A stretch of 64,000 nucleotides of DNA from an uncultured Acidobacteriia bacterium (GTDB taxonomy: Bacteria > Acidobacteriota > Terriglobia > Bryobacterales > Bryobacteraceae): the NCBI GenBank assembly GCA_903925975.1, contig CAIYHG010000181.1, forward strand, positions 1 through 64,000, written 5' to 3'. Both the position numbers and the translations under genes were made by a program. Position 1 is the stretch's first letter. Each line of letters begins with the position of its first letter. This document shows, one piece after another, positions 866 through 35,601 of this stretch. The notes below the pieces were generated by a model, which was given only the letters and a program-made list of their open reading frames with translations, ran no database searches and had not been told where the DNA came from.

Positions 866-1157
866 GACCGCACGTAACCCTCGCATCAGGGCGCGGCTGG
901 TCACTCACGAAGCCCGCGAGCGTCCGCCATGCGAAGCCGGTGACAGCCTTCTTGTCTAGTCTCATCTGCAACTTAACGGGAGCGCCTTGCACCCCCATGT
1001 TAGAGTAGAGCCGGATGATGGGTCGCACCTCACGGGGGTGCAGCCTGCGAGCGCCCGGCCGATTTGGCTTGGTTCATTCAGGCCTGATAGCTGTCCCTAA
1101 CGCGGGTTCGGCGGAACGCGCAGATCTCTACTCCACTGCTTGGGAATTCACCTGAGA

Positions 1158-34112: not shown

Positions 34113-34160
34113 TTTGGTGCAGGGAATCCTTTCGAAACTAGCAGTATAGCAAAACACGAA

Positions 34161-34190
34161 CCCCCGTGGCCCGTTTCCGGTCCACGGGGG
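34161..34190 (-). terminator. Strong hairpin upstream of rpmE, terminator of the short ORF transcript
   Basis: The minus strand reads CCCCCGTGG-a-CCG-gaaa-CGG-g-CCACGGGGG: a 9-bp perfect stem plus three more pairs and a GAAA tetraloop, then TTCGTGTTTT. A transcript entering from 34279-34377 should stop here, separating that unit from rpmE. Confidence 0.75.
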
Positions 34191-34278
34191 CTTGTAGCCT
34201 AGAAGTAAACCTGAGGCTGTAGCTGACGCAAGAGGCAGCCGGTCCACAGGAACCTGATTCCGATACTGGACGGAATCG

Positions 34279-34377
34279 CTACGTTAGAGGCACGACTTCA
34301 ACAGTCGGCCACCTCTCGCGGTCTTTTATTACTATCCATTTTGCTGGACCACCTCCTTTTCCAGTTGTAGCCTTCAT
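34279..34377 (-). CDS. Candidate 32-residue small protein upstream of rpmE
   Basis: This ORF is absent from the track because of its size. It runs ATG to TAG on the minus strand and encodes 32 residues, including [20 protein letters not shown]. The composition is protein-like: a Gly-rich turn, a KWIVIKDRE strand-like segment and a hydrophobic VEVVPL end. A GAGAG lies close before the ATG and a TTGACA about 25 bases upstream. About 90 bases later there is a strong intrinsic terminator, so the unit looks like a self-standing transcript of about 220 nt rather than an rpmE leader. I do not recognise a family. An alternative is a structured small RNA in which the ORF is incidental. Confidence 0.45.
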
Positions 34378-34458
34378 GCTCTCACGGCCTCGCGGAAGTT
34401 GTCAAACTACAATGGGAGGAATTGGGAGGGGGTCCAATAGGTGGGTTCGCAGGCGGCT

Positions 34459-35496
34459 CTACAGCGTCTTCGCGGCGAAGCGGCTCATCGCCAGACCGTC
34501 CATCAGGTTGAAGGGGAACTCGCCGGTGGTGTAATGGGCGCACGGCAGCCGGAAGACTTCGTGGGGCAGGTTCAGAGCCCGGTAGCCTTCGATCAATTGC
34601 TTCGAGTAAACCGGCAGAAAGCTGGTATCGTGCCGCGCCCAAACCAGCAGTGAGCGCAGATTTCTTCCCTGGAGCCGATTGAGAAACGATGCCGGGCTGA
34701 TCACGGACCAATACCGGCGCAGGTCGTCCTGATTCACGCCTTGCTCAAGCCCCTGCCGAACGTGCTGGGTGGAAAGCCCGGTCCAAACGACGTCGGAAAA
34801 ATACATCGAGACGTGGTTGAATATGGCGGAACGCACGCGCGCGTCGTGAGCGGTGGCGATGAATGCCACGCACGATCCGAGGCTGGTGCCCAGGATTCCC
34901 AAGCGGCGGTAGCCGCGCGACTCAAGCCAATCGAGGCAGGCGCGGGTATCGACCACCGACTGGCGGCAGGCGTGAATAGTGCGGCCGATGTTACTGGAGA
35001 CGTGGTAATCAGCGCGGCCGAGCTGGGGGGGCATGCGCTCGGCATGATAGGCGAGCGTCAGGCGTAACACGCTGATTCCGAACCGGTTGAGCAGCTTGGC
35101 GAGACCGACGTGGCCATCCGCGTCGGAATTCCATTGAGGCAGAACGACCAGCGCGCGTCCCTGGTCGCGCGGGGCGGGGAACCAGAGCGCGTGCACCTCA
35201 TCGTTGAGAGCGATTCCGGAGGGGGCGGGGCTGGGGAAGGTGAGCCGGCCGTTCCGGAACGCGTAATCGGTGACGGGCGGGTAGGCGTAGAATGCCTCGG
35301 AATCAGCCAACGCGGACTTGAGGAAACCGCCTACGGGGCCGGATGGGTCGACGGGGAGGGGCTGCGGAAGCGGAGGCATACCCAGGAGTTCGAGCCACTC
35401 GGAACCCCATTCAAAGGGCCGGGTCAGACGGCCGGTGTCCCGCGATGCTAGATTTCGCTCCCAGCGGTCGATCCACCGGGCGTAGAGTCCCCTCAT
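34459..35496 (-). CDS. Alpha/beta hydrolase-like protein
   Basis: The 345-residue protein has an alpha/beta-hydrolase core: LVVLPQWNSDADGH at the oxyanion-type strand, the nucleophile elbow LGTSLGSCVAF, an aspartate in LVWARHDTSF, and a histidine in PCAHYTTGEFPF. The N-terminus (LYARWIDRWERNL) is helical and basic. The family is close to the ABHD18-like uncharacterised group; substrate unknown and not secreted. A -10-like TATACT (35515-35510) lies just before the gene and just after a strong terminator, so transcription likely begins within 15 bases of ATG 35496. Confidence 0.7.
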   Translation of the reverse strand: MRGLYARWIDRWERNLASRDTGRLTRPFEWGSEWLELLGMPPLPQPLPVDPSGPVGGFLKSALADSEAFYAYPPVTDYAFRNGRLTFPSPAPSGIALNDEVHALWFPAPRDQGRALVVLPQWNSDADGHVGLAKLLNRFGISVLRLTLAYHAERMPPQLGRADYHVSSNIGRTIHACRQSVVDTRACLDWLESRGYRRLGILGTSLGSCVAFIATAHDARVRSAIFNHVSMYFSDVVWTGLSTQHVRQGLEQGVNQDDLRRYWSVISPASFLNRLQGRNLRSLLVWARHDTSFLPVYSKQLIEGYRALNLPHEVFRLPCAHYTTGEFPFNLMDGLAMSRFAAKTL

Positions 35497-35525
35497 TCAG
35501 GAAACTCTGAGTATAACGAAAAAGA

Positions 35526-35558
35526 GCCCTGCGCCGGCAGATGGAGCCGGCGCAGGGC
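35526..35558 (-). terminator. 13-bp perfect intrinsic terminator
   Basis: The perfect stem GCCCTGCGCCGGC-N7-GCCGGCGCAGGGC is followed on the minus strand by TCTTTTTCG. It should end a leftward transcript from about 35.6-35.8 kb, where no conventional gene is annotated. Confidence 0.85.
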
Positions 35559-35601
35559 CGCGTATCGCCCAGGAGAGGCAACGCACCAAAGTAAGATCCC
35601 T

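Follow-up and report, generated by a model that had tools for sequence, protein, structure and literature searches.

A Predicted Small RNA Gene with a Conserved Short Reading Frame in Bryobacterales, Probably Related to Ms_IGR-5

The intergenic DNA upstream of rpmE in an uncultured Acidobacteriia bacterium carries what is, on balance, best explained as a translated, ribosome-gated small RNA gene. The window analysed is a 64,000-nucleotide stretch of contig CAIYHG010000181.1, and comparisons between it and related genomes support three features of the predicted gene: its independence, a translated small open reading frame (ORF), and a fold, conserved at the level of the clade, in which the end of the ORF forms part of the main helix. 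The RNA represents a previously unrecognised coding form of an RNA family that is already known though uncharacterised, and members with the same short ORF occur in Actinomycetota and probably in several other phyla.

Promoter, Terminator and Genomic Setting

By sequence, the gene would form a stand-alone unit in the window: it is intergenic and has both its own promoter and its own terminator. The −35 box of the promoter, TTGACA (34400–34405, minus strand, as are all parts of the element described below), takes the form TTGAC[A/T/G] in 40 of 40 aligned relatives of the order, lying at the same base in 27 of them and within 2 nt in the remainder. After a spacer of 16–18 nt in these relatives comes the −10 box, which reads GAGCAT in the window (34376–34381) and TANNAT in most relatives, and transcription is predicted to start at about 34369 ± 2. 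At the other end lies an intrinsic terminator (34151–34190), consisting of the GAAA-looped hairpin CCCCCGTGGaCCGGAAACGGgCCACGGGGG (34190–34161) and the T-rich tail TTCGTGTTTT, just as the initial annotation had placed them before rpmE. A G+C hairpin with a T-rich tail also follows the RNA in most of the relatives seen, and the fold z-score of the region (−4.35) puts the terminator and the overall fold beyond chance. The RNA gene, which is single-copy, is almost certainly real, and its transcript is predicted to be about 215 nt long. Elsewhere in the window, another strong terminator-like hairpin of 14 pairs with a CTTTTTC tail (35525–35559, minus strand) occurs just upstream of an alpha/beta-hydrolase-like gene (34459–35496).

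The initial annotation had proposed a discrete short transcript, either encoding a micropeptide or acting as a dual-function RNA, and had taken a 32-codon ORF as its coding unit. By sequence the discrete transcript is upheld, and it most likely encodes a micropeptide within a structured RNA, but the peptide is not the 32-residue one. The ORF does run from ATG to TAG on the minus strand (34377–34279). Given the positions of the two promoter boxes (34405–34400 and 34381–34376), its ATG overlaps the −10 box and would precede the predicted start of transcription by some 8 nt. A homologous ATG is present in only 4 of the 40 relatives, and in-frame stops break the frame in all three same-genus homologs (L003, L004 and L005), so that the 32-residue peptide lacks the reading-frame conservation by which it was to be judged. 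When intergenic DNA matched in length and composition is shuffled, an ORF of at least 32 codons beginning with ATG arises in 83% of trials, and the window holds one such ORF per 193 bp. The 32-codon ORF is no more than a chance frame.

The neighbouring gene, rpmE, encodes ribosomal protein L31 (33873–34112, minus strand; Pfam PF01197 Ribosomal_L31, E 2e-32) and lies outside the element. It has a separate promoter, whose extended −10 (TGCTATACT, 34143–34148) stands directly after the terminator, and TGNTATACT recurs in relatives having rpmE next. Packing here is tight, since in the stretch 34143–34160 the extended −10 begins at the T tail of the RNA terminator, and the same arrangement is repeated in relatives keeping rpmE adjacent. 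Homologs had been expected always upstream of rpmE, an expectation that holds for 27 of 40 relatives in the order and for none of 22 in other Acidobacteriota. No neighbour common to the element across phyla was found. Genes recurring near the Actinomycetota loci (L047–L166) encode class IV aminotransferase (Aminotran_4), THAP4/nitrobindin-like, GCV_T-domain and rhodanese proteins. A phage or plasmid origin was rejected: there was no phage match, one match sits in a 2.66-Mb Nocardia replicon, and the matches to the pattern in viral sequences were due to chance.

A Conserved 13-Codon Reading Frame

In a different frame from the 32-codon ORF lies a small ORF of 13 codons and a stop (34298–34339; ATG at 34339, TGA at 34298), whose peptide ends in the window with Arg-Glu-Val-Ala-Asp-Cys-stop. 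All 40 relatives of the order have this frame open with an in-frame ATG, and the stop comes directly after Glu-Val and three further codons, while the length ranges from 12 to 22 codons; a start codon is found in the alternative frames in 0 and 2 of the 40. Among other Acidobacteriota located with a covariance model, the frame is kept in 22 of 22 members with ATG or GTG as the start and three codons between GAGGTG and the stop (peptides such as MIDSHIQNRSEVSEA, MSYHSRSEVFDRTREVAAT and VSLPSNYSETREVPVT, each ending at the stop), and a second, cross-phylum model (R2) adds members with the small ORF, including VEYCRCGLMEVAAP and MKIDSTCSSTQREVTEA, again up to the stop. In one BLAST-found relative of the order (L040, ~935–1060, plus strand), a GC-rich insertion between the Shine-Dalgarno (SD) sequence and GAGGTGACCGACTGCTGA breaks the SD-proximal frame; this would be a decaying or re-wired copy.

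Further evidence came from a stop-blind scan of GTDB species genomes with the pattern AAGGAGGTGGTCC-N20-50-GAGGTGG, in which starts, stops and frame were left unspecified and which returned at least 120 stretches. In 114 of the 117 distinct scan matches listed, exactly three codons separate GAGGTG from a stop, where about 5% would be expected, and the ORF frame is open in 114 of 114, compared with 29 and 33 for the other two frames; kinship inflates these counts, and the breadth across phyla is independent of it. The same pattern gave seven matches in viral contigs, none of them with a stop three codons after GAGGTG. Start codons exchange between ATG, TTG, GTG and CTG at a fixed place among the scan matches listed, and TGA, TAA and TAG exchange at the fixed stop position. 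Where codons differ, the changes are synonymous and conservative more often in the ORF frame than in the others. The N-terminal part of the peptide varies in length and sequence; the C-terminal motif, [T]xEV[A/V]xx followed by the stop, also occurs in Actinomycetota, and its Thr codon varies between ACT, ACA, ACC and ACG among the scan matches listed. Such patterns indicate that the small ORF is very probably translated, and it is under selection as a reading frame, as in a dual-function RNA. No mention of the peptide or its reading frame was found in the literature or databases searched.

Complementarity to 16S rRNA

Immediately before the small ORF is an extended SD sequence, AAAAGGAGGUGGUCCAGC (34343–34360), which makes 17 contiguous pairs with the 16S 3′ end GCUGGAUCACCUCCUUU. 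With the 16S 3′ end taken from a relative, G011 (GCGGCTGGATCACCTCCTTTCT), the RNA segment AAAGGAGGUGGUCCAGC pairs with the 16S tail over 17 nt with one G-U. Among BLAST-found relatives, only G/A variation occurs at the G-U position, and the A carried by three of them also pairs. The assembly contains just one other copy of GGAGGTGRTCCAG, which appears to lie within coding sequence. The long SD of Terriglobia-type members (L218, L224, L225 and L229–L231) has an extra base (GGAGGATGGTCCAG or GGAGGTTGATCCAG) that breaks contiguous 16S pairing; since GRTCCAG is kept despite that base, it may serve for more than plain pairing with 16S.

A second SD-like sequence, GAGGTG (34310–34315), lies inside the ORF as its Glu-Val codons, nine nt before the stop, and matches the same 16S core as the long SD. 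It has no wobble variation in 175 sequences, an invariance that is partly by construction, as the scan set was selected for GAGGTG and the extraction of the 62 Acidobacteriota sequences, located with BLASTN or a covariance model, also sought it; the distance to the stop was not preset. The wobble-invariant GAG GTG suggests a nucleotide-level role beyond coding.

A Fold Conserved in Bryobacterales

The main helix of the predicted fold, P1, is formed over the last codons of the ORF by the 5′ strand CGCGAGAGGUGGCCG (34306–34320), which pairs with the 3′ strand CGGCUGCCUCUUGCG (34227–34241), 64 nt downstream, to give 15 bp. In nearly all relatives the 3′ strand starts 73–78 nt after GAGGTG. Pairing is kept in the P1 core (94% of cells paired), with variation on the 3′ side only, and lower P1 covaries on both sides, with 180 of 240 pairs compared with 136 after shuffling (maximum 154 in 1000 shuffles). 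A hairpin, P3, of the form GAUUCCG-UCCAGUAU-CGGAAUC (34256–34277) shows both-sided changes in six of its seven pairs (41 sequences), and its loop holds UCCAGU (34270–34265), which forms a pseudoknot with ACUGGA (34360–34365) in the RNA's 5′ end. Most relatives have CACUGA at the 5′ end pairing with UCAGUG in the P3 loop. Six or more contiguous own-sequence pairs of the pseudoknot are present in 93% of the 40 relatives, against 11% when shuffled and 62% when cross-paired, and an A-U to G-C change retains it in nine sequences. Over the whole structure, 90.9% of pairs are formed compared with 29–50% for slid and 86.7% for shuffled alignments, and the covariation score exceeds all 500 shuffles.

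Bryobacterales thus have a conserved RNA structure separate from the coding signal, the second property of a dual-function RNA. The pseudoknot was not seen in Actinomycetota and a contiguous P1 was not detected in other classes of Acidobacteriota, which makes the detailed fold clade-specific, and any switch built on it may be as well. Sequestration of the SD by the P1 3′ strand (GGUCCA/UGGACC) was considered and found unsupported, as changes on the 3′ side are uncompensated in L005, L025, L026 and L028, and a local hairpin around the stop codon was weakly above shuffles. At L045 (~1038–1130), the P1 3′ strand, GCUGGAUCACC / GCTGGATCACCC, repeats the 16S 3′ tail, and GCTGGATCACCC could pair with either SD-like strand.

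Distribution Across Phyla

Of 101 related genomes, 43 gave a BLASTN match to the region. Among 199 Acidobacteriota genomes, only some one in five had strong full-length R2 matches (E below 0.001), and the element is therefore either patchy or diverged beyond detection. The scan matches listed come mostly from Actinomycetota and Bryobacterales, and they include credible single members whose peptides run to a stop and whose MAG labels are Zixibacteria (LINTELSEVAAT), Rokubacteria (MCPPTVSCEVVPS), Nitrospirae (VGSTNPTASEVAAS), Deltaproteobacteria (MIDKCCDCEVAET) and Sumerlaeota (LSKMETSEVAVT), labels that may err, as illustrated by L097, which is labelled Acidobacteriota and resembles an actinobacterial member. 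Three loci (L023, L188 and L190) were false matches. The same RNA and peptide probably occur, then, in several phyla beyond Acidobacteriota and Actinomycetota. A single-copy RNA gene extending across these two phyla, and likely more, is rare.

Proposed Mechanism and Alternatives

One means by which the RNA might function is through the ribosome that translates it. The long SD would capture a 30S subunit, which would then translate the 13-codon ORF. With the ribosome at the stop codon, some 6 nt would separate the internal GAGGUG from the P-site codon downstream of it, which by established ribosome geometry is a normal SD distance, and renewed pairing of GAGGUG with 16S could therefore detain the ribosome as it terminates. 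While detained there, the ribosome would keep P1 open, and scarce ribosomes or failed initiation would let P1 and the pseudoknot close; as a terminating ribosome and P1 would be mutually exclusive, ribosome traffic would set the fold. In this manner the RNA would act as its own switch, changing in fold, and probably in stability or in accessibility to partners, as the supply of ribosomes or the efficiency of termination changes; the peptide may be secondary. Ribosome-gated folding as the very purpose of the RNA is a tentative suggestion. A little less probable still is an ancient, multi-phylum class of RNAs, listed until now in one phylum as a non-coding sRNA, in which two fixed anti-16S sites, one ahead of the start codon and the other three codons short of the stop, would make the terminating ribosome the fold switch, sensing ribosome supply or termination. 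An SD-like sequence fixed three codons before a stop does offer a sharp prediction on ribosome pausing at termination.

It is also conceivable, although unlikely, that the peptide is the product, the transcript being a very short mRNA whose 12–22-residue peptide acts on a protein or on the ribosome while the fold tunes translation. A strictly kept frame and a C-terminal Thr-x-Glu-Val-Ala retained across phyla with synonymous changes are what such a gene would show; the variable N-terminal part is not, and Glu-Val codons that never change point to a nucleotide rather than an amino-acid constraint. Pairing with GGUCC could likewise constrain the AGG-ACN codons of Actinomycetota. A ribosome or 16S sponge, in which the long SD and GAGGUG titrate the 16S 3′ end while translation is a by-product, would account for a 17-nt complement to the 16S tail in a single-copy gene with a strong promoter, and for the repeat of the tail in the P1 3′ strand of L045. 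It is nevertheless improbable, as a sponge could work with no reading frame or start codon kept and no stop at a set place, and a single transcript species falls far below ribosome numbers.

The remaining two readings, in which the RNA is purely non-coding or is a leader of rpmE, are at odds with the evidence. Covariation in P1, P3 and the pseudoknot, together with the Rfam type "sRNA", is what would be seen of a structured sRNA without coding function, as Rfam lists Ms_IGR-5, yet structure leaves the preservation of a frame over 12–22 codons unexplained, as it does the exchange of NUG start codons and of all three stops at a fixed codon, and this reading has very little probability. Least probable of all is a cis-regulatory leader, or attenuator, of rpmE. 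The element does lie just upstream of that gene in the window and in the majority of the order, but it is intact without a downstream rpmE in 13 of 40 relatives and in all 22 other Acidobacteriota, and both a terminator and the separate extended −10 stand between the two; it is neither always upstream of rpmE nor arranged for co-transcription with it. A translated, ribosome-gated small RNA gene accordingly stays the favoured reading, with the qualification that its gating is proposed from sequence.

Comparison with Known Systems

SgrS/SgrT, Spot 42/SpfP and RNAIII/hld are dual-function sRNAs and, like the RNA described here, are independently transcribed structured RNAs bearing a small ORF. 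The present ORF is far shorter, its end is part of the main helix, its internal SD-like sequence has a fixed spacing to the stop, and the RNA ranges over several phyla. Leader-peptide attenuators and upstream ORFs (uORFs) with an extended SD, of which those of S. aureus are an example (PMC13009471), also combine a short ORF with an over-long SD and a ribosome position presumed to set folding. The window RNA differs in being ended by its own terminator, in having no regulated downstream gene, and in its non-conserved neighbour. Like tmRNA, it would be stable and carry within it a very short ORF that ends in a helix, but it has an ordinary start codon and SD and no tRNA-like part; ARAGORN found no tRNA or tmRNA in the window, and this identity was rejected.

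No known Rfam family reached its curated cut-off within the window. A very weak match of 11–12 bits to CC2171 (RF01867), a Caulobacter sRNA, was seen at 34287–34367 (minus strand), and CC2171 is a possible proteobacterial relative. The closer relative is Ms_IGR-5 (RF02471; cut-off 45 bits), an sRNA of Actinobacteria that Rfam assigns the type "sRNA" and lists as non-coding. RF02471 aligns with the window RNA over its full length at 14.7 bits, below the cut-off, and rises to 25–26 bits for L014 and L016 (25.7 for L016) and to 43.8 bits for L022 (G118), the best Acidobacteriota member found. Above the cut-off are the actinobacterial members L049, L052, L056, L057 and L075, with Actinomycetota loci at 50–172 bits, and the Zixibacteria locus L085 at 55.9 bits. 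In the other direction, the Bryobacterales model R1 scores 18–48 bits, with E down to 1.8e-10, on Actinomycetota loci that had been preselected by two blocks.

The window RNA and Ms_IGR-5 share the 5′ block AAGGAGGUGGUCC and the GAGGUGGC block at similar spacing, and their parts follow the same order of ACAC..GGAAGGAGGUGGUCC, spacer, GAGGUGGC, structured middle and strong terminator. The alignment extends from 1 to 184, its full length, for the window, L014, L016 and L022, and Actinomycetota members carry the same type of small ORF (LIDLWTCEVAAR and MYSHRTREVAAR, each followed by a stop). In contrast, the window RNA has another middle structure with a pseudoknot, and it lies outside Actinomycetota. 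It is highly likely that the window RNA is homologous to Ms_IGR-5, although outside the curated family. Homologs of Ms_IGR-5 are transcribed in M. smegmatis (PMC10454040) and in S. lividans and S. avermitilis (PMC8079986, PMC8780764). In M. abscessus and M. smegmatis, homologs of MS_IGR-5 have also been reported to yield ribosome-protected reads, though the authors caution that the same is true of many classical non-coding RNAs (PMC4974804). Considered alongside the short ORF described here, Ms_IGR-5, an RNA present in Mycobacterium and Streptomyces, becomes directly testable as a translated element.
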